Positions 20,572 through 50,565 of a DNA stretch of 64,000 nt are shown here, piece by piece. Origin of the DNA: Microbacterium abyssi (GTDB taxonomy: Bacteria; Actinomycetota; Actinomycetes; Actinomycetales; Microbacteriaceae); NCBI RefSeq assembly GCF_015277895.1, contig NZ_CP063815.1:620001-684000 (forward strand). Direction: 5' to 3'. The stretch's first letter is position 1. Every line of letters begins with the position of its first letter. Under the pieces are notes generated by a model. The model saw only the letters and a list, made by a program, of their open reading frames with translations. It was not told the origin of the DNA and did no database searches. The position numbers and the translations under genes are program-made.

Positions 20572-22089
20572 TCAGCCGGCTCCGAGCAGGCGCACCCTGC
20601 AGGCGAGCTCCACAGCGAAGCGCACGTCCGGGTCGTCGAGATCGATGCCGAGCAGCTCGCGGATCTGGCGCATGCGGTAGCCGACGCCGTTCGGGTGCAG
20701 CATGAGCTCACGGCCGGTGTGCACGAGCGAACCCTCGTGCGCGAGATACGACTGCAGCGTGCGCACGGCGGTCAGCGCCCGATCCGTGCCCAGCTCGTCG
20801 AGCGGGCGCAGGATGTCGTGCAGCAGATCGCGGCTGATCGGCGATGCATAGACGTCCAGGAGCACGCGCCGCAGACCGGTCACGTCCGTGAGCTCCACGC
20901 CGCCGAGGCGCCCGGCGGCGATCGCCGATTCGGCGGCGATCCGGGCTTCCGCGGCGGATTGCCGCAACCCGGTGGCCCCGAGCTGCGGCGTTCCCAGCCC
21001 GACTGTGTACTCCCACCCGCTGCCCGCGAGCAGATGGGCGTGCTCCTTGATGCGCACGGCGACCTCACGCACTCGGCGCTGGTGGTCCGGGGCGCCGTGC
21101 TCCTCCGTGCACACGAGCATCAGATCGTCCTGCAGGAACGCGAAATGCCACATCTCCGACCGCTCCTCGACGAGCTGGAGCGCGAACAACTCGAGGGCCG
21201 GCTGGACGGTGCGGGGCGCACGATCGTGCACCGCGGAGGGATTGGCGGGAGCGAGCCACGCGACGACATGAGAGAGCTGCAGTGGGAGCCCCAGGTGGGC
21301 CGCTCGTCCGACGAATCCCTCCACGCGGGAGGAGTCGGTGAGCACGAGCTCGATCAGCAGGTCCGCTCGCGACTGCGTCGGCGCGAAGCGGTCGCGGCTC
21401 TGACGCTGGGCAGCACGCGAGAGCAGGGCTGCGACGACTGGAATCGCGACGTCCGTGGCCGGGTCCGGCGATGCGGCCGCGAGACGGCCGATCGGCACCT
21501 CCCCGATGCAGACCGCATCCTTGGAGGTCCACTGCACGGTCGGATCCTCGACGATCGACAGCGTCGTGCCGAGCGCGCGCGATGCCGCAGCGAGGATGCC
21601 GTCGCTGGAGGCATCATCGCCGGCAGCTGCTTCGGTGGCGCGTTCGACGGCCTGCGCACCGCGCATCATCGCCTCCGAAGCCCCGCCGGCCACTGCGCGG
21701 TCTATCGCCTTGGCGAGTTCTGCGGCGTCGGCACCCGGCGCGCAGAACACCGGAACGCCGCCGCGCGCGGCGAGCGCCGACGCCGTCTCGGCGAGGGTGA
21801 GATCGATCGTGAACACGATGCCGGCGAGGCGCCGGGCACTTGCGCGGCGCAGTGCGACGTCGACGCGGAACGGGGCCGGCTGCTCTTCACCGGTCAGGAT
21901 CACCAGCGCTCCGGCGGGAACCGCGTCCAACCGGTCGAGCGAGCCGAGATCCACTCGGTCGATCGAGCGATCGTCGATCGGGCCGGCCAGGTGCCGCAGA
22001 CCGAGACGTTCGGCCGCTGTACCGAGATCTCGAACCAGGTACTGTGCCACGAGCACAGTCTGACATGAAACAGTGGATTGAAGGAACAT
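20572..22089 (-). CDS. PucR-family transcriptional regulator
   Basis: About 505 aa. The N-terminal PucR-type ligand domain (PF07905-like) runs from YLVRDLGTAAERLGLRHLAGP to about residue 130, the middle is CdaR/GGDEF-like, and the C-terminal helix-turn-helix is HPNGVGYRMRQIRELLGIDL. Such regulators usually activate purine, allantoin or amino-acid catabolic genes. The start is uncertain: ATG 22089 is used here, while GTG 22056 or 22050 lies directly at the domain boundary and would also fit. It is divergent from the DUF917/HyuA operon, its likely target. Confidence 0.82.
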   Translation of the reverse strand: MFLQSTVSCQTVLVAQYLVRDLGTAAERLGLRHLAGPIDDRSIDRVDLGSLDRLDAVPAGALVILTGEEQPAPFRVDVALRRASARRLAGIVFTIDLTLAETASALAARGGVPVFCAPGADAAELAKAIDRAVAGGASEAMMRGAQAVERATEAAAGDDASSDGILAAASRALGTTLSIVEDPTVQWTSKDAVCIGEVPIGRLAAASPDPATDVAIPVVAALLSRAAQRQSRDRFAPTQSRADLLIELVLTDSSRVEGFVGRAAHLGLPLQLSHVVAWLAPANPSAVHDRAPRTVQPALELFALQLVEERSEMWHFAFLQDDLMLVCTEEHGAPDHQRRVREVAVRIKEHAHLLAGSGWEYTVGLGTPQLGATGLRQSAAEARIAAESAIAAGRLGGVELTDVTGLRRVLLDVYASPISRDLLHDILRPLDELGTDRALTAVRTLQSYLAHEGSLVHTGRELMLHPNGVGYRMRQIRELLGIDLDDPDVRFAVELACRVRLLGAG

Positions 22090-40807: not shown

Positions 40808-42088
40808 TCAGGCCGAGAAGAAGGCCTCCGCGACGCGGGTCAGGTCGTACAGGTCGCTGACGCCGGCGAGCTCGCGGGCCGAGTGCATCGACAGGATCGG
40901 GATGCCGACGTCCACCGTGCGGATGCCCAGACGCGTGGCCGTGATCGGGCCGATCGTCGAGCCGCACGGCACGGTGTTGTTCGAGACGAACTCCTGCGAA
41001 GCGACCCCCGCCGTGGCGCACCAGTGCGTCCAGGCGGCGGAGCCGACGGCATCGGTCGCATACCGCTGGTTGGCGTTGATCTTCAGGATCGGCCCGGATC
41101 CCAGCAGCGGTTGCACCACCGGGTCGTGCTTGAAGACGTAGTTGGGGTGCACCGAGTGGCCGACATCGCTGGAGAGGTGCCAGGATGCCGCGAACGCGCG
41201 GCGCTGCTCGGTGGCGTCCGCTCCGAGACCGGCGTAGACACGCGACAGGATGTCTTCGAGGAACGGGCCGGCCGCACCGGAGCGCGAGGCGGAACCGAGC
41301 TCCTCGTGGTCGAACGCGGCGAGGACGGCGATGTGGTCCGAGCCCTTCGAAGCGCCGGCCAATGCGACGACGCCGGCATGAACGGAGGCCAGGTCGTCCA
41401 GGCGTCCGCTCGCGAAGAAGGCGTCGTCCTTGCCGAAGACGGCACCGCGCGCGGAATCCGCGACGACGGCGTCGAAGCCGCGGACGTCGGCGGCGTTCAC
41501 GCCCGCAGACGACGCCAGCTCGCCGAGCAGGTCCTCCTCAAGGGGGTCGCCGAGCCCCCACACCGGCTGGGTCTGCTGCTGCTTGTCGAGCGTGAGCGCC
41601 TTGTTCGCCTCGCGGTCGAGGTGGACGGCGAGCTGGGGCAGGCGCAGCAGGGCGCCGGTGTCGGCGAGCACGACGCGGCCGTCGGCGAGCGCGAGCCGGC
41701 CGGCGAGGCGGAGCTCCCGATCGAGCCACGAGTTCAGGAGAGGGCCGCCGTAGATCTCGACCCCGGCCTGGAGCCAGCCGCGTGACCCGGTCGTCGGCTG
41801 CGGCTTGAGCTTGAAACCGGGCGAGTCGGTGTGCGCACCGAAGATCTGCGCGGGCGTCGTGGGCGCAGCATCCTTCGGCACCGCCCACGCGATGACAGCG
41901 CCGTCGCGCACCACGACGAAGCGACCGCCCGGTTGCGCGGGCCATTCATCCTGTTCGTCGAGACGCATGAATCCGGCATCCTCGAGGCGGCGGGCCACCT
42001 CGGCAGCGGCGTGGTAGCTCGAAGGGGAGGCAGCGACGAAGTCGGCGAGATCCTCGGCGTGGGAGAGTGCTGCGGCGGTGACGACCAT
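40808..42088 (-). CDS. M18 family aminopeptidase (aspartyl aminopeptidase)
   Basis: 426 aa metallopeptidase. Family features are FVAASPSSYHAAAEVARRLE, the metal His in IFGAHTDSPGFKLKP, FGKDDAFFASGRLDDLAS with the bridging Asp, AFDHEELGSASRSGAAG with the catalytic Glu pair, and the C-terminal metal region VDVGIPILSMHSARELAG. It removes N-terminal acidic or neutral residues from cytosolic peptides. ATG 42088 matches the family N-terminus; an extension to 42151 is not conserved-looking. It is divergent from the riboswitch-controlled EamA gene. Confidence 0.93.
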   Translation of the reverse strand: MVVTAAALSHAEDLADFVAASPSSYHAAAEVARRLEDAGFMRLDEQDEWPAQPGGRFVVVRDGAVIAWAVPKDAAPTTPAQIFGAHTDSPGFKLKPQPTTGSRGWLQAGVEIYGGPLLNSWLDRELRLAGRLALADGRVVLADTGALLRLPQLAVHLDREANKALTLDKQQQTQPVWGLGDPLEEDLLGELASSAGVNAADVRGFDAVVADSARGAVFGKDDAFFASGRLDDLASVHAGVVALAGASKGSDHIAVLAAFDHEELGSASRSGAAGPFLEDILSRVYAGLGADATEQRRAFAASWHLSSDVGHSVHPNYVFKHDPVVQPLLGSGPILKINANQRYATDAVGSAAWTHWCATAGVASQEFVSNNTVPCGSTIGPITATRLGIRTVDVGIPILSMHSARELAGVSDLYDLTRVAEAFFSA

Positions 42089-42171
42089 GGGTTCGATCGT
42101 ATCCGCGACCGACGGACCCTGTGCGTTCGCACCCGTCCCTGCGGCGTTCACACCATGGTGTTAGGGTGTCG

Positions 42172-42282
42172 CTCGACAGTGCCTAGGGTTCCGGGGCTCA
42201 CGCCCGACTGGTCCGAGCGGCACCACGACTCGTCTTCGCAGACGGTCGTCATCTGACAGGACAAAAGCCCGGAGGAGCCCGT
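42172..42282 (+). ncRNA. ykkC-family riboswitch, probably guanidine-I class
   Basis: The conserved core is present in order: CTAGGGTTCCG at 42183-42193, CTGGTCCGAG at 42208-42217 and GGACAAAAGCCCGG at 42259-42272, with a variable stem between them. This matches the ykkC RNA, whose type 1 members bind guanidinium. The type 2 members (ppGpp, PRPP and others) share much of this core, so the ligand is less certain than the family. It lies 33 bases before the ATG of an EamA exporter. Confidence 0.83.
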
Positions 42283-42313
42283 TCGTCGCGCCCGCCGACG
42301 GACAGAAGGCTCC
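42274..42313 (+). promoter_or_regulatory. Possible expression-platform hairpin of the riboswitch
   Basis: GGAGCC (42274-42279) can pair with GGCTCC (42308-42313), and the enclosed TTCGTCG/CGACGGA blocks extend the stem. The right arm covers part of the AGAAGG ribosome-binding sequence just before ATG 42315, so folding could block translation when no ligand is bound. Confidence 0.5.
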
Positions 42314-42314
42314 C

Positions 42315-43181
42315 ATGTCCGCACTCGCTCTCGTCCTCGTCTTCTCCGCCGCCGTCACGCACGCCGTGTGGAACATCATCGCTCACGGCATCAGTCGCGC
42401 CGGCATCCCGTTCCTGTGGTGCGGGGCCGTAGCCGGCGCCGTCATCTGGGGCGCCGCGATCCCGTTCACCGGCGGCATGGGCGAGAGCGACTGGACCGGC
42501 TTCCTGATCGGCGTCGGCATCTCGGGCGTTCTGCACGTGGCCTACATGCTGGTGCTCCAGCACGGCTACCGCGTCGGCAACCTCTCCACCGTGTACGCGA
42601 CAGCGCGGGGGAGCGGACCGTTCCTCGCCGTGATCGCCGCCATCGTGCTGCTGGGCGAGCGGCCTTCCGGCTGGGCGCTCGCCGGGGTGCTGGCGATCGT
42701 CGCCGGGGTGGTCGCGCTCGGACTCGTCGACCGTGCACCGCGAGGCGAGCGGCAGCGCGGGCTGGACCCGTCGATCGTCTTCGGACTCTTGACGGGTGTC
42801 GCGATCGCCACTTACACGATCTGGGACACCCACGCCGTTCGCGAGTGGCATCTCGCCCCCGTGCCGTACATGGTCGGCACCTGCGTCATGGAGATCGTCG
42901 TGTACTCGGTGATGCTGCATCGCCGGTGGCGCGAGACCGTCGCCTTCGCCCGGTACCAGTGGCGCCGCGTGCTCGTCTTCGGATTCCTCTCGCCGCTGTC
43001 GTACATCCTCATCCTCGTCGCGGTGACGATCGCACCGGTCGCGCTCGTCGCGCCGCTGCGCGAGGTGAGCGTCGTGCTGGTGAGCCTGTTCGGCGTCTTC
43101 GCGCTGAAGGAGAGCCGCCCCGCCGCGAGGCTGGCGGCTTCGGGAGTGGTGGTGGCAGGTATCGTCCTGCTCGCTGGATGA
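42315..43181 (+). CDS. EamA-family exporter under riboswitch control
   Basis: 288 aa with about 10 helices, two EamA repeats (first SALALVLVFSAAVTHAVWNI, second after LDPSIVFGLLTGVAIATYTI) and conserved APLREVSVVLVSLFG at the end. SMR guanidine exporters (Gdx/SugE) belong to the same DMT superfamily but are four-helix proteins; this protein has the ten-helix size. The ykkC RNA directly upstream predicts export of guanidine or a guanidino compound if the RNA is class I. It ends 10 bases from the convergent response regulator. Confidence 0.88.
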   Translation: MSALALVLVFSAAVTHAVWNIIAHGISRAGIPFLWCGAVAGAVIWGAAIPFTGGMGESDWTGFLIGVGISGVLHVAYMLVLQHGYRVGNLSTVYATARGSGPFLAVIAAIVLLGERPSGWALAGVLAIVAGVVALGLVDRAPRGERQRGLDPSIVFGLLTGVAIATYTIWDTHAVREWHLAPVPYMVGTCVMEIVVYSVMLHRRWRETVAFARYQWRRVLVFGFLSPLSYILILVAVTIAPVALVAPLREVSVVLVSLFGVFALKESRPAARLAASGVVVAGIVLLAG

Positions 43182-45419: not shown

Positions 45420-45568
45420 TGTTCCGGCCGCTCGTTCAGCGTGCGTTCACCCGCTGAGAGTCCGGTGGAATGTCGGGTGAACGCGAGGGAAACTCTCCCG
45501 GGTTCGGCGGGGGACCGCAGGTGTCGGGTGCGACAGTGGATCTCAATCCCTCGCACCGAAAGAGCATC

Positions 45569-46723
45569 ATGACGCGGCATTCCGTGGCCTCAGACACAGC
45601 CGATCTGGTCGTCGTCGGCGCCGGCATCGTCGGCCTCGGCGCCGCATACGCCGCCGCGCGTCGTGGCCTGCGTGTGATCGTCGTCGATCGCACGGCAGGG
45701 CCGATCGGTGCGACGATCCGCAACTTCGGCCACCTCTGCATCGGTGCACAGACCGGCCTTGCCCGCGAGTTCGCAGACACCGCACGGGAGACGTGGCTGC
45801 GCCTGGCGACGGATGCCGGATTCTGGCTGCGCGAATCCGGAACCCTGATCGCTGCACGCCAGGGTGACGAGCTCGCCGTGCTCGAGCGCGCGTCTGCCGA
45901 CGGCGGGGTTCGGATGCTGACGGCCGAGGAGCTGCGGCGCCATGCCCCGCTGCGCGCGGATGCCGTCGTCGGCGGCGCGCGCATCGCGTCCGACCTGCAG
46001 ACCGACCCGCGCGAAGCCGCCAGCGCGATCGTGCGGCATCTGGTCGCACTCGGCGTCGAGTTCCGCTTCCGCACCGCCGTCACAGCGGTGTCCGGCATCC
46101 GCGTCGAGACCACGCGCGGTGCGATCGACGCCGGCAGGGTCGTCGTCGCCATCAATCACGACCTCGATCAGCTCCTCCCTGACCTCGCCGAGCGGGTCGG
46201 CGTTGTCCGCTGTGCCCTCGACATGATGAGGGTGAGCGCGACGATGCCGCGCACGCTCGATGCGCCGCTCCTCACGGGGTGGTCGCTGCTGCGCTACGGC
46301 CGGTTCGGCAGTTACCGCGAGACCACCGCACTGCGTGAGCGGATGCACGCTGAGCGGCCCGACCTCGCCGCCCTCGATCTGAACCAGATGTACACCCAGT
46401 TGCCGGACGGCTCGCTCATCCTCGGCGACTCGCACAGCCGCGGCATCCAGCCCGCTCCGTTCCAGCCGGAAGCCGCCTTCGATGCCTTTCTCGAAGAGGC
46501 GCGGGCGCTGTTCGAGATGGAAGGCATCCGCGTCATCGAACGCTGGCAGGGCGTATACGCATCCGGGCCGGACGAGTTCCTCATCGAGGAGCCGGAACCG
46601 GGCTTGCACGTCATCGCCGCGACCACCGGCATCGGCATGACCTGCGGCCTCGGCCTTGCCGAGCACACGCTTCGAACCGCAATCGAGCGGGCACCGCAGC
46701 CCGCGCAAGGAGGAGAATCATGA
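45569..46723 (+). CDS. FAD-dependent oxidoreductase, phosphonate-catabolism-associated (TIGR03364-like)
   Basis: 384 aa DAO-fold flavoenzyme. The FAD motif VVVGAGIVGLGAAYAAARRG is near residue 14, followed by GPIGATIRNFGHLCIGAQTG and the C-terminal EPGLHVIAATTGIGMTCGLG. The TIGR03364 group occurs beside phosphonate genes and may deaminate or demethylate amino-phosphonates. The next two genes are the other members of the usual trio. ATG 45569 has GAAAGAG upstream; the longer frame from 45470 is not supported. The stop overlaps the hydrolase start. Confidence 0.87.
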   Translation: MTRHSVASDTADLVVVGAGIVGLGAAYAAARRGLRVIVVDRTAGPIGATIRNFGHLCIGAQTGLAREFADTARETWLRLATDAGFWLRESGTLIAARQGDELAVLERASADGGVRMLTAEELRRHAPLRADAVVGGARIASDLQTDPREAASAIVRHLVALGVEFRFRTAVTAVSGIRVETTRGAIDAGRVVVAINHDLDQLLPDLAERVGVVRCALDMMRVSATMPRTLDAPLLTGWSLLRYGRFGSYRETTALRERMHAERPDLAALDLNQMYTQLPDGSLILGDSHSRGIQPAPFQPEAAFDAFLEEARALFEMEGIRVIERWQGVYASGPDEFLIEEPEPGLHVIAATTGIGMTCGLGLAEHTLRTAIERAPQPAQGGES

Positions 46724-47427
46724 CCGCCATCGAACTCGTCGTCCTCGACATGGCAGGAACGACCGTCCGCGATGACGGCGTGGTGGAGCAGGCGTTCCAG
46801 CGCGCGGCCGAACGCACCGGCGTCGCAGATCGGATGCCGTGGCCGGACGCGCTGCAGTACGTCCGCGACACCATGGGGATGTCGAAGATCGATGTCTTCA
46901 CGCACCTCGCCGGCGGAGACGTCGCGGCGGCCGCCGCCGCGACCGCGGCGTTCGAGGGCGCATACTCCGACATCATCGCCGAACAGGGCGCCCTGGAGAT
47001 CCCCGGTGCCGCCGAGGCGATCGCCGGACTCCGCGATGCCGGGCTCAAGGTTGCCCTCACCACTGGATTCGCGCCCGTGACCCGCGACGCGCTGATCGAC
47101 GCGCTCGGTTGGCGCGACCTCATCGACCTCGCGCTCTCACCGGTGGACGCGGGCCGTGGCCGGCCGGCTCCCGACCTCGTGCTGACCGCGCTGCTGCGCA
47201 CCGGCACGTCCTCCGTGCGGGCCGTAGCCGTCGTCGGCGACACCAGCAGCGACGTCGAATCTGGACGCCGGGCCGGGGCCGGATTCGTCGCCGGCGTCCT
47301 CAGCGGCGCGCACGACCGCGATGCACTCGCCGGCGCGGATGCCGTGCTGGACGACGTCACATCGCTGCCGGCGGCACTCGTCGAGCGCAACCTCGTCGCC
47401 CGCGCTCTCGTAGCACGGACGCCGTGA
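46720..47427 (+). CDS. Phosphonatase-like HAD hydrolase (TIGR03351-like)
   Basis: 235 aa HAD-superfamily protein. Motif 1 is VLDMAGTTV, with Asp nucleophile and an Ala-Gly sequence as in phosphonoacetaldehyde hydrolase (DxAGT). The cap domain follows, motif 2 is ALTTGFAP and motif 4 VVGDTSSDVESG. This group is named phosphonatase-like; whether it cleaves a C-P bond or a phosphate ester is not established. It is translationally coupled to the FAD enzyme (ATGA) and one base from the dehydrogenase gene. Confidence 0.87.
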   Translation: MTAIELVVLDMAGTTVRDDGVVEQAFQRAAERTGVADRMPWPDALQYVRDTMGMSKIDVFTHLAGGDVAAAAAATAAFEGAYSDIIAEQGALEIPGAAEAIAGLRDAGLKVALTTGFAPVTRDALIDALGWRDLIDLALSPVDAGRGRPAPDLVLTALLRTGTSSVRAVAVVGDTSSDVESGRRAGAGFVAGVLSGAHDRDALAGADAVLDDVTSLPAALVERNLVARALVARTP

Positions 47428-47428
47428 C

Positions 47429-48517
47429 ATGCGTGTGCTGGCGCCGCATGAAGAACGGCACGACGTCAATCTGAGACCCGCGGCCACCGCGAAGGTGTGG
47501 CTCGGCTCGGGCCAGGAGCACGAGACGGTTGCCGTGCCCGGGGTAGCCCTCGGCCACAGCGATGCTCTGGTCGCGATCGAGCTTTCGACGATCTGCGGAT
47601 CGGATGTGCACACCGTCGCCGGTCACCGCTCAGCACCGGCCCCGCTGGTGCTGGGCCACGAGAGCGTCGGGCGGATCATCGCCCTCGGCGAGCACGGCGT
47701 GAAGGCGGTCGATGGCACGGATCTGCGCATCGGCGACCGCGTGGTGTGGTCGGTCACAGTGTCCTGCGGCACGTGCGACCGCTGTGCCGCGGGGCACGCG
47801 CAGAAGTGCCGGACGCTCGCCAAGTACGGTCACGAGCGGATCGGTCCGCGCTGGGAGCTGACCGGAGGGTTCGCCAGCCACGTCCACCTGCGCGCCGGTA
47901 CGGCGATCGTGCGCGTACCCGAGGCGCTGCCCTCTGCCGTGCTCGCACCGGCGTCGTGTGCGACGGCGACCGCATGGGCGGCCGTGAGCCGCGGATCTGC
48001 GGGGCGCCTGCTCGAGGGCGTTCGCGTGCTCGTCTACGGCGCCGGACTCGTCGGGCTGTCGGCAGTCGCGATCGCGGCGGATGCCGGCGCTCGGGTCACT
48101 GTCATCGACCCCTCGGCACAGCGGAGGGCGTTCGCCGAGCGGTTCGGGGGGAACGCGGCGACGGCGGCGACGGAACCTGCGGACATCGTGATCGAGGCAT
48201 CCGGTCACGCCGTCGCCGACGCGATCGCCGCGGCGGACGTCGGCGGCACGGTCGTGCTCGTCGGCAGCGTCTTCCCGGCCGACCCCGTGCCCTTCGACGC
48301 TGAGGATGCCGTGCGGCGCCTGCTCACGATCACCGGCGTTCACAACTACACGGGCCGGGAGCTGGCGGCTGCGGCGGGATTCCTCACCGGTACAGGACGC
48401 GCCTATCCCTTCGCCGAGGTCGTCGGCGAGGTCTTCGCGCTCGACGAGGTGGATGCGGCGATCGCCGCGGCATCCGCACCAGGAGCGCCGTTGCGCGTCG
48501 CGATCAACCCGCGTTGA
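47429..48517 (+). CDS. Zinc-dependent alcohol dehydrogenase, phosphonate-associated (HpnZ-like)
   Basis: 362 aa medium-chain dehydrogenase. The catalytic zinc site has ICGSDVHTVAGH and GHESVGRI; the structural zinc site has CGTCDRCAAGHAQKC. The NAD-binding region is VLVYGAGLVGLSAVAIAADA. This is the third member of the FAD oxidoreductase, phosphonatase-like, dehydrogenase trio. It may oxidise a hydroxy or amino phosphonate. The last 14 bases overlap the convergent membrane-protein gene. Confidence 0.85.
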   Translation: MRVLAPHEERHDVNLRPAATAKVWLGSGQEHETVAVPGVALGHSDALVAIELSTICGSDVHTVAGHRSAPAPLVLGHESVGRIIALGEHGVKAVDGTDLRIGDRVVWSVTVSCGTCDRCAAGHAQKCRTLAKYGHERIGPRWELTGGFASHVHLRAGTAIVRVPEALPSAVLAPASCATATAWAAVSRGSAGRLLEGVRVLVYGAGLVGLSAVAIAADAGARVTVIDPSAQRRAFAERFGGNAATAATEPADIVIEASGHAVADAIAAADVGGTVVLVGSVFPADPVPFDAEDAVRRLLTITGVHNYTGRELAAAAGFLTGTGRAYPFAEVVGEVFALDEVDAAIAAASAPGAPLRVAINPR

Positions 48518-49559
48518 CCCTCTCGAACTCATCGCCTGAGGGCGTCCGCGTCGTCTGAGCGAGGATCGGCACCAGCCGAGCGGCGGCGAGGAGCGCAGCG
48601 GAGGCGAGCGTCGCCAGAGCGAGGCCGGGCTGCGCGATCGTGGCAGCAGCGAGGAGCACACCAGCCATGATCCACAAGAGGCGGAGTACGGACCCGCGGT
48701 GCATCGGCGCGACGACCGCGAGGATCAGGCCGGCGATCGCGAGCAGCGCACCGATGCCGACATTGATCGCCCAGACGCTCAGCCAGGTCTCACCAGTCGG
48801 CAGCGGATCGGTGCGGGGGAGGGTGGCCGCACTGAGCCAGCCGGCCGACCACAGCAGCGGCACAAAACCCAGGATCGTGAGCGTCGTGCGCCGAGTGCCC
48901 TCGCGCGATGCGCCGAGCAACACGAGGATCCCGGTCAGCAGTGCGACGGCCGATCCGGACAGGAGCGCGAGGCCGGGGAAGATGTAGCCGATGCCGTCGG
49001 AGCACATCCAAGCACCGGCGGCCTCTCCCTCGGTGCCGTAGGAACACCCGACGTGGAGCTGTTCGCGCAGCATCCCGACCGCGCCCAGCGATGAGAACAG
49101 CGCGAGGAACCCGCCCGCGATGAGAATCAGCAGGCGCGCTGTGAACGACGGGTCGGTGTGGCGCAAGGTCGGCGCGCTGGTGAGCTGACGGGCGGCGGCA
49201 CGAGCGACGGAGATGTGCAGAACTGTCGTCACCGCCGCCGTGACGACCATCGGCACGAAGTAGTAGCCGCGGGTCAGCACCCAGGACGCGAAAGCGGCGA
49301 GTGCGATCGATGCCGCCCCTGAGATCGCGAGGGCCCGAAGGGTGGACGCGGTCAGGGTCGATGCGAGCAGGGTCAGTCCCATCGACACGACACCGATCAG
49401 CAGACCGAATCCGCCCATCAGTGAAAGAGAGAAGACGCTCAGCGGCACCCCGAGCATGATGCCGTAGACGACTGCGGCGATCACACCGCACAGTCCACCC
49501 ACCGCGACGGGCACCCACGCCGTGCGCCGTGCACCGGCGGCGATCCGAGTCGATGTCAC
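48504..49559 (-). CDS. Multi-pass membrane protein of unknown function
   Basis: 351 aa, GTG start, about 8-9 hydrophobic helices (from VAVGGLCGVIAAVVYGIML onward). A pair of Cys lies in an apparent loop (VGCSYGTEGEAAGAWMCSDG), which may form a disulfide outside the cell. I recognise no family. Its end overlaps the convergent dehydrogenase gene by 14 bases and its start is divergent from an EamA transporter. Confidence 0.75.
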   Translation of the reverse strand: MTSTRIAAGARRTAWVPVAVGGLCGVIAAVVYGIMLGVPLSVFSLSLMGGFGLLIGVVSMGLTLLASTLTASTLRALAISGAASIALAAFASWVLTRGYYFVPMVVTAAVTTVLHISVARAAARQLTSAPTLRHTDPSFTARLLILIAGGFLALFSSLGAVGMLREQLHVGCSYGTEGEAAGAWMCSDGIGYIFPGLALLSGSAVALLTGILVLLGASREGTRRTTLTILGFVPLLWSAGWLSAATLPRTDPLPTGETWLSVWAINVGIGALLAIAGLILAVVAPMHRGSVLRLLWIMAGVLLAAATIAQPGLALATLASAALLAAARLVPILAQTTRTPSGDEFERVNAG

Positions 49560-49623
49560 TCGTCGAACCTATCGCGGCCCGCACGATTGGACGAGGGTGT
49601 CCCGTAGGGCGCACGCTGGGTAC

Positions 49624-50565
49624 GTGGCCTCGACTTCGTCCTCTCGTCCCGCCGTCGGTGTGGCGCTCGTCATCGGATCGTGTCTGTCGCTGCCGTTCGG
49701 CGCGGCCATCGCCGCACAGCTCTTCCCCGCGCTCGGCGCGTGGGGTGTCACGTCGCTCCGGATCGGGCTCGCGGCGCTGATCCTGCTCATCGTGGTTCGC
49801 CCGCGGATTCGCGGCTGGAGCAGGCAGCAGTGGCTCGCGGCGGCGCTGTTCGGAGTGTCACTGGCCGGAATGAACGGGTTCTTCTACTCCGGGATAGAGC
49901 GCGTGCCGCTCGGACCTGCGGTCGCGATCGAGTTCCTCGGGCCGCTGATCCTGGCGGCCGTGCTCACCCGCCGCCTGGTGGACGGCGTCTGGGTCGCGGT
50001 CGCGCTCGTGGGCATGGGGCTGCTCGGGCTCGACGGGATGCTCGAGGCCGAACCGCTCGACCTCCTCGGCGTCGTCTTCATCCTCTTCGCCGCCGGGTTC
50101 TGGGTGTTCTACATCCGGATGAGCGCCAGGGTCGGCGAATCCATCCCCGGCAGCGGCGGTCTCGTGGTCGGGCTGCTCGTCGCGTCCGTTCTGCTGCTAC
50201 CCGTCGGCATCCCGACGGTTGCGACCGCCAGCGGCGACATGATGCTGCTTCTGCTGGCCCTTCTCACTGCCGTGCTGTCGTCTGTGATCCCCTACAGCTT
50301 CGAACTCGCCGCCCTCCGGCGCCTGCCGCAGCGTGTGTTCGGCGTGCTGCTCAGCCTGGAGCCCGCGTTCGCGACGCTTGCAGGCTGGCTGGTCCTCGGC
50401 CAGTCGGCGACGCCGCTGAAGCTCGCCGCGGTCGCCCTCGTCGTCGCAGCGAGCGTGGGCACGGCGCTAGGCGTGCGTCGCGAGAAGCGCCGCGCGGACG
50501 ACGACAGCGGTCCCGACGAACCGCCCGCAGTTTTCACCGGAACGATCCCGATCGTTCCGAACTGA
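49624..50565 (+). CDS. EamA-family transporter (RhtA-like exporter)
   Basis: 313 aa, about 10 helices. The first repeat has ALGAWGVTSLRIGLAALILL and SGIERVPLGPAVAIEFLGPL; the second has VIPYSFELAALRRLPQRVFG and LLSLEPAFATLAGWLVLGQ, the pattern of RhtA-like threonine/homoserine exporters. A GTG at 49624 fits the family start; the longer open frame to 49522 runs into the divergent gene. The end is 7 bases from the convergent YidC-like gene. Confidence 0.87.
   Translation: MASTSSSRPAVGVALVIGSCLSLPFGAAIAAQLFPALGAWGVTSLRIGLAALILLIVVRPRIRGWSRQQWLAAALFGVSLAGMNGFFYSGIERVPLGPAVAIEFLGPLILAAVLTRRLVDGVWVAVALVGMGLLGLDGMLEAEPLDLLGVVFILFAAGFWVFYIRMSARVGESIPGSGGLVVGLLVASVLLLPVGIPTVATASGDMMLLLLALLTAVLSSVIPYSFELAALRRLPQRVFGVLLSLEPAFATLAGWLVLGQSATPLKLAAVALVVAASVGTALGVRREKRRADDDSGPDEPPAVFTGTIPIVPN

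Follow-up and report, generated by a model that had tools for sequence, protein, structure and literature searches.

An RNA of the ykkC family stands before the gene of a ten-helix membrane transporter in Microbacterium abyssi, and this phn_DUF6-like exporter and its RNA go with the aminophosphonate oxidase HpnW/PbfD (TIGR03364), an association that is new here. The RNA very likely belongs to an orphan class that is already known, the ykkC subtype 2d. Taking the locus as a whole, we give a probability of about 60% to the reading that a 2d aptamer acts as a translational ON switch for a DMT-superfamily exporter and that the compound concerned is tied to aminophosphonate breakdown. Positions are those of the window, i.e., the whole 64-kb stretch of DNA that was analysed (Table 1).

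Table 1. Positions of RNA elements and genes at the locus
Feature	Position	Strand	Basis
ykkC-family aptamer	42172-42276	+	RF00442, end-to-end match; model R1 matches 42174-42281
P1	42179-42183 with 42219-42223	+	covariation, 3/5 pairs changed on both sides
P1b arm	42191-42197 with 42202-42211	+	covariation, 4/7 pairs
Marker position	42218	+	C in window, A in guanidine-I (marker after PMC6031431)
P3	42252-42254 with 42274-42276; 42259-42260 with 42268-42269	+	covariation
Hairpin covering ribosome site	42274-42279 with 42308-42313	+	folding and complementary changes
Likely Shine-Dalgarno AGAAGG	42304-42309	+	sequence; 5 nt before ATG 42315
phn_DUF6-like EamA transporter, 288 aa, ten helices	42315-43181	+	Pfam, NCBIfam, AlphaFold
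Putative HpnW/PbfD-type FAD oxidoreductase	45470-46723	+	TIGR03364 361 bits, cut-off 285
Phosphonatase-like hydrolase	46720-47427	+	TIGR03351 219.9 bits, cut-off 218.9
Phosphonate-catabolism alcohol dehydrogenase HpnZ	47429-48517	+	TIGR03366 359 bits, cut-off 328

The aptamer and its ykkC subtype

The aptamer aligns to the Guanidine-I model RF00442 over all 107 positions (1-107) with 46.9 bits (E 7.4e-7). With permissive filters this is the sole Rfam match up to E 1 within 41500-43000, and the genome of the window (3.27 Mb, one contig) has no further RF00442 match up to E 10. As the gathering score of 63 is not reached, the Rfam scan of the whole 64-kb window at gathering scores reported nothing, and a default-threshold scan alone would have hidden the RNA. 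The original prediction had recognized three ykkC blocks in the right order, assigned the element to the ykkC family and proposed a covariance-model search as a check; the end-to-end match agrees with the block order and the assignment, and the RNA is thus confirmed as a real ykkC-family element. A second match of our model R1 in the window (21710-21769; 12.3 bits, E 0.67) was set aside as chance.

Of the 198 Microbacterium genomes in the genus sample, 54 have a match to RF00442 up to the E-value set, as do 24 of the 249 genomes in the family sample, two of these 24 being common to both samples, and 21 of the 396 in the phylum sample; the strict filters miss weak matches. An EamA homologue lies downstream of the RNA in all 31 genus loci taken (30 of the 54 plus the window); in L019 and L024 the homologue behind the RNA is not one whole frame. 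Among the 71 loci L001-L071, 54 have a homologue of the window EamA protein, namely the 31 genus loci, 22 further family loci and L050, and the remaining 17 comprise 11 guanidine-I-type loci, two 2c-like loci, one locus with a TauE gene (L045) and L047-L049, which by eye have another EamA type.

The subtype was read from a marker base. The AG-bulge adenosine A46 separates guanidine aptamers from the others, and a pyrimidine takes its place in ppGpp and PRPP aptamers, as described in an excerpt of PMC6031431. The window reads GGUCCGAG-C-G with C at the marker, and the marker is also C in the Microbacteriaceae loci recovered by the neutral RF00442 search (L067 read as L128), whereas guanidine-I-type loci have A in 9 of 10 cases in a first set (L032 has G; L036 is outside the count) and in 12 of 13 in a second (L249 has G). 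C likewise stands in every one of the 52 rows of alignment A1, the window row included, which is not independent evidence because the selection pattern demanded C. At the S-turn guanosine positions of the Rfam alignment the window has G and A, in a register made uncertain by a two-base insertion beside them. Model R1, whose training set includes the window, gives the window 101 bits as compared with 22-52 for eleven guanidine-I-type loci and 53-58 for two 2c-like RNAs. The window RNA therefore shares with Guanidine-I the overall fold and most of the conserved blocks and departs from it in the C that replaces the pocket A, in its sub-gathering score and in its target genes; a guanidine-I identity, as originally predicted, was rejected on the marker C and the downstream genes.

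Both marker and targets instead fit subtype 2d. In the published classification, ykkC RNAs before phn_DUF6 genes form the unsolved subtype 2d, with a consensus closest to guanidine-I (PMC5912903, excerpt), and a 2020 review lists EamA and TauE targets with an undetermined ligand (PMC7266159, excerpt); no later report of a 2d ligand appeared in the titles and abstract starts of open-licence PMC papers, among them PMC12186494 and PMC10043782. The window RNA has the ykkC scaffold with no marker A, and the gene behind it encodes an EamA protein that is phn_DUF6-like (below the TIGR03340 cut-off); a similar RNA stands before TauE genes in Mycobacterium and Nonomuraea. We are confident that the RNA is a 2d RNA by marker and targets, as set against the description of the published class. 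The advice given with the original prediction, to try the other ykkC subtypes, was therefore sound, and its proposal of a second type of guanidine exporter loses its footing because the marker is C and the RNA and downstream genes fit 2d. Since 2d RNAs before phn_DUF6/EamA and TauE genes are described in excerpts of PMC5912903 and PMC7266159, pairing a ykkC RNA with an EamA gene is in itself no novelty; the MFS targets and the link to HpnW described below go beyond those excerpts. The PRPP (2b), ppGpp (2a) and NDP (2c) riboswitches are built on the same scaffold, with a marker pyrimidine in 2a and 2b, but the targets here are transporters rather than genes of purine, amino-acid or nucleotide metabolism.

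Two variations on the scaffold were noted in passing. In L010, L065, L070 and L071, GGUUCGAG and CUCAAGGGAYAGAAGCC replace the GGUCCGAG and CUGACAGGACAAAAGCC of 2d RNAs, a joint change of two blocks that perhaps reflects a tertiary contact or a sub-specificity. One genome, G475, has two 2c-like ykkC RNAs (L113, L114), and the gene behind each (L043, L051) is by eye HAD hydrolase-like.

The exporter and the hairpin over the ribosome site

The protein encoded behind the RNA matches the EamA domain (PF00892) with 49.6 bits (cut-off 28.2) and is similar from end to end to TIGR03340 phn_DUF6, a phosphonate utilization associated membrane protein (112 bits, E 4e-32). As this is far below the curated cut-off of 288 bits, we call it phn_DUF6-like, i.e., a relative of the TIGR03340 proteins rather than a member. 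Its AlphaFold model (pLDDT 86.9) has ten long helices in the DMT fold, in keeping with the ten-helix EamA target originally predicted; among solved structures the fold comes nearest to LicB, a choline transporter (TM 0.81), SLC35B1 and 5i20 (TM 0.72), the last of which we take to be YddG, and a sequence search of solved structures returned nothing useful. The protein is thus a DMT/EamA transporter and not a four-helix SMR protein: Gdx/SugE exporters are distant relatives in fold and are likewise controlled by riboswitches, but they have four helices, Pfam gives EamA only, and the NCBIfam SMR models EbrA and MdtJ match weakly (20-23 bits, far under cut-off). In an alignment of 27 phn_DUF6-like proteins, H16, H74, R98, D171, R249 and R272 never vary, a set that may fit an anion or zwitterion better than guanidinium as substrate.

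The fold of the RNA is supported by covariation. In alignment A1 (52 rows), the structure of P1, P1a, P1b, P2 and P3 is paired in 94.7% of cells (78.4% in shuffles), the covariation score is 0.446 as compared with 0.139 when shuffled and at most 0.111 in slid registers, and 188 cells are changed on both sides against 58.8 in shuffles; a fold lacking the conserved pairing, which the original prediction had named as counter-evidence, was not what we found. P2 by itself is paired in only 68% of A1, a MAFFT alignment, which is too low for scoring P2. The outer pair of P3 (42252-42276; RNAalifold, 52 rows) is U-A in 30 rows, C-G in 16, A-U in four and G-C in two, and is broken in none. The RNAalifold pairing of A1 columns 110-134 was preferred by eye to an initial choice for P3, columns 108-130.

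The hairpin, which takes in the end of the likely Shine-Dalgarno sequence, has a folding energy of -21.6 kcal/mol (z -2.36), a stability that 4 of 200 shuffles reach. Six or more pairs (G-U allowed) form the helix in 48 of 51 Microbacteriaceae loci, which have 16 different arms, compared with 922 of 1866 pairings of these arms with the windows of other loci, and relatives show complementary changes in the arms (GGAGCC/GGCTCC, GGACCC/GGGTCC, GGATCC/GGATCC). This stable fold and the changes in relatives uphold the earlier suggestion that a hairpin at 42274-42313 hides the ribosome site. It is also found in 15 of 18 Mycobacterium loci, a set that counts one locus twice (L045 = L243) and has too little variation for a test (cross pairings 123 of 168), and is not clearly seen in 53 other loci (23 of 53; cross pairings 806 of 2642), so that the expression platform may differ there. 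Bases 42274-42276 are common to the 3' strand of P3 and the start of the hairpin, and a translational ON switch is therefore likely. Its direction is drawn by analogy with the sibling classes, the guanidine, ppGpp and PRPP riboswitches being ON switches according to an excerpt of PMC6031431. A simple consensus scan of 42050-42330 found neither a sigma-70-type promoter nor an intrinsic terminator, and the absence of a terminator argues weakly against attenuation.

In the mechanism that we propose, 42274-42279 would pair with 42308-42313 when the ligand is absent, and the ribosome site would be hidden. Ligand binding would close P3 and rob the hairpin of the three shared bases, the ribosome site would be freed and the exporter made, and the exporter would expel the sensed compound or a close relative of it, in a direction that we infer.

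Phosphonate genes and co-occurrence with HpnW

Behind the exporter the window has, in order, a response regulator, a histidine kinase and then, 2.3 kb behind the exporter on the same strand, the trio of putative HpnW, phosphonatase-like hydrolase and HpnZ. Alternative starts of HpnW are 45584 (gene caller) and 45566 (our choice). TIGR03364, the model on which the HpnW assignment in the window rests, covers PbfD1 of PMC10590968, and PbfD enzymes oxidise 2-aminoethylphosphonate (AEP) and N-methyl-AEP to phosphonoacetaldehyde and ammonia or methylamine, as described in an excerpt of that paper. In relatives, homologues of PhnCDE-like uptake genes adjoin HpnW in 22 of 30 HpnW loci examined, their identity being scored for one of the 22 (L126: SBP TIGR01098 157.5 bits, cut-off 112; PhnC 294.6, cut-off 266; PhnE 417, cut-off 217). 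In L093 and L126 (also L139 and L179), a GntR-type regulator on the opposite strand and genes for SBP, ATPase and permease lie between exporter and HpnW; the best model of the L126 regulator is PhnF, under cut-off. In many relatives PhnCDE and GntR genes precede the trio; in the window (45470-48517) the trio lacks them. A further EamA gene (49522-50565), RhtA-like with 202 bits (cut-off 354), follows the trio at a distance of 1 kb, past an opposite-strand gene; this is the type of gene that 2d RNAs precede most often in the pattern scan described below.

Across the genus (198 genomes), 54 genomes have the RNA, 67 have HpnW and 50 have both (Fisher p 2.6e-27), i.e., HpnW is present in 50 of the 54 RNA genomes as compared with 17 of the 144 without the RNA; 44 of the 50 pairs lie within 15 kb and six on different contigs. 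The exporter gives the same picture, with orthologues in 57 of 198 genomes (interrupted in G034 and G128) and HpnW in 54 of the 57 (p 4e-32); G178 was dropped as a 58th orthologue, being a 41% paralogue. Four genus genomes have the RNA without HpnW, two of which also lack a whole exporter: G039 is 44% complete, G042 has the RNA, a whole exporter and an HpnZ fragment, and G013 has an RNA of 76.5 bits with model R1 and neither exporter nor HpnW. G137 (L124) has an intact RNA, a truncated exporter, a partial HpnZ and no HpnW, perhaps decay caught half-way. G132 has the exporter without HpnW or an RNA match. HpnW occurs in thirteen genomes that lack the exporter, and the exporter in five in which no RNA was detected, three of which gave no RNA match above chance with filters off.

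In the family sample (249 genomes), HpnW is present in all 24 RNA genomes as compared with 69 of 249 overall (p 1.4e-15), or, counted by genus, in 14 of 14 RNA genera and 32 of 85 (p 1.2e-7), and in seven of the 24 (G639, G714, G753, G760, G793, G808, G810) it is separated from the RNA by over 700 kb or lies on a different contig. The overall frequency of HpnW across samples is 28-34%. These Fisher tests, like those below, treat genomes as independent and ignore shared ancestry, an objection that rearranged and unlinked cases answer in part.

To reach beyond the family, genome contigs were scanned with a 2d pattern built to leave out most Microbacteriaceae, which fixes the marker C and the 3' block and so defines the set in advance. 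It returned 51 loci from Actinomycetota, Chloroflexota, Bipolaricaulota, Deinococcales and one Hyphomicrobiales MAG. In all 50 loci with a readable target (L149 has no room for one) a transporter gene comes next: 18 RhtA-like EamA, 13 phn_DUF6-like EamA, 10 TauE/TSUP and nine MFS, as typed by tblastn against 11 representatives (L143 was added by its MFS match), with eight target proteins scanned against Pfam and five against NCBIfam, and with some genes cut or short (e.g., L156, L173, L176, L178). No purine, amino-acid or Nudix gene is found among the 50 targets. HpnW was searched in the genomes of 41 of the 51 loci; L139, L152 and L179 (family), L147 and L173 (second loci) and L149 and L167 (cut) were left out, as were, without good reason, L133, L135 and L172. 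It is present in seven of the 41, namely in 6 of 10 genomes with a phn_DUF6-like target (counting the partial gene of L157 and the split gene of L177) and 1 of 31 with other targets (p 3e-4; RhtA-like 0 of 15, TauE 1 of 9, MFS 0 of 7). The 8-kb phn_DUF6-type loci outside the family (Leucobacter and Microbacterium loci excepted) hold no homologues of the phosphonate trio. In Nesterenkonia and Garicola, 2d RNAs precede MFS genes (L138, L142, L147, L154, L164, L178), a target absent from the excerpt of the review PMC7266159. In the distant phylum locus L117/L050, the 2d RNA is followed by a phn_DUF6-like gene (41%) and a sodium:solute symporter-like gene, and an amidase-like gene lies upstream, the names being given by eye.

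Mycobacterium offers a comparison within one genus. Of 138 genomes, 17 have a 2d RNA (called at an R1 score of at least 92 bits), six before phn_DUF6-like genes and 11 before TauE genes (G953 typed by a short match), and 40 have HpnW. HpnW is present in all six phn_DUF6-type genomes against 34 of the 132 others (p 4e-4), on a contig other than that of the RNA in G885, G898, G910 and G920 (G898 and G910 are fragmented drafts in which HpnW may be near), 293 kb away in G881 (a split gene) and 4.6 Mb away in G960. Three of these six genomes (G881, G910 and G920) are those of L177, L137 and L144, so that this test overlaps with that of the pattern loci. In 2d-TauE genomes the link is not significant (4 of 11, p 0.47). 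The loose phosphonatase model TIGR01422, all of whose matches are under cut-off, is found in 11 of 17 2d genomes as compared with 29 of the 121 others (p 0.001), a difference that is due in part to the position of that gene next to HpnW. Of the 11 TauE-type genomes, 7 have HpnW or phosphonatase, as compared with 33 of the 121 genomes that have no 2d RNA (uncorrected p 0.018), a result that is no more than suggestive. Four Mycobacterium 2d-TauE genomes (L215-L218) have a cluster of GntR, phosphonatase-like and HpnZ genes without HpnW.

Ligand, rival explanations and meaning

Because the exporter and its RNA go with HpnW, aminophosphonate breakdown is the most likely setting of the compound, be it a substrate, a product or a look-alike; that the ligand itself is tied to aminophosphonate metabolism is a tentative view to which we give slightly less than even odds. 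One RNA class precedes four exporter types, hence the RNA should sense one compound, or a narrow group, that is to be expelled, and candidates may be AEP, N-methyl-AEP, phosphonoacetaldehyde or the released amine. Outside the family HpnW is rare among the 2d genomes with other targets, so there must be sources of the ligand that do not depend on it; the compound would be formed or taken up in aminophosphonate oxidation in phn_DUF6/HpnW bacteria and come from other sources elsewhere. Evidence against the phosphonate reading comes from the 4 of 10 phn_DUF6-type genomes outside the family without HpnW, from the exporters of G042 and G132 and from the thirteen HpnW genomes without an exporter.

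It is also possible, though we doubt it, that 2d senses a small amine or a general toxic ion with phosphonates as one source of several, for example the methylamine that PbfD enzymes release from N-methyl-AEP (PMC10590968, excerpt). The four transporter types under one RNA class and the presence of HpnW in just seven of 41 2d genomes outside the family speak for this. TauE-type proteins, however, usually move anions, and the three arginines and two histidines that, against a single aspartate, never vary in the aligned phn_DUF6-like proteins would be odd for a plain cation site. Less probable, and in our view unlikely, is that exporter and HpnW are linked by shared descent, as one island gained or lost as a block: most genus pairs do lie close together and the tests count genomes as independent, but the link is kept after rearrangement (L085, L100, L105, L108, L130) and when the genes lie apart (seven of 24 family genomes and six Mycobacterium genomes), and Mycobacterium genomes with only lower-scoring, mostly guanidine-I-type RNAs have HpnW at background frequency (5 of 20). 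A nucleotide ligand, as in ppGpp (2a), PRPP (2b) and NDP (2c) riboswitches, is improbable; the marker pyrimidine is that of 2a and 2b, and an A, allowed in 2a, is aligned at the G96 position in an uncertain register (PMC6031431, excerpt), but all 50 readable pattern-locus targets are transporters, and the two 2c-like RNAs, which precede HAD-like genes by eye, score well below the window. Least probable is a true guanidine-I riboswitch driving a new type of guanidinium exporter: Guanidine-I is the sole Rfam match, and a distant kinship between DMT and SMR proteins is accepted (PMC9574504, excerpt), but the marker is C in the window and its Microbacteriaceae relatives, 46.9 bits compare with 67.9-85.4 for the ten phylum-sample loci above cut-off, the R1 scores separate the window (in the training set) from guanidine-I-type loci, and the neighbouring genes are not guanidine genes.

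Returning to the reading of 2d as a sensor tied to aminophosphonate breakdown, its most specific form, namely an aminophosphonate-pathway riboswitch (for AEP, N-methyl-AEP or phosphonoacetaldehyde) with phn_DUF6-like EamA proteins as the matching exporters that keep HpnW-type oxidation safe, is speculative and rather unlikely to hold in full. The link to HpnW/PbfD narrows "some toxic compound" to a short list of ligands for 2d. We know of no earlier riboswitch for a compound with a C-P bond; if 2d senses a compound of the aminophosphonate pathway, it would be the first, and the exporter is possibly needed by bacteria that use phosphonates.
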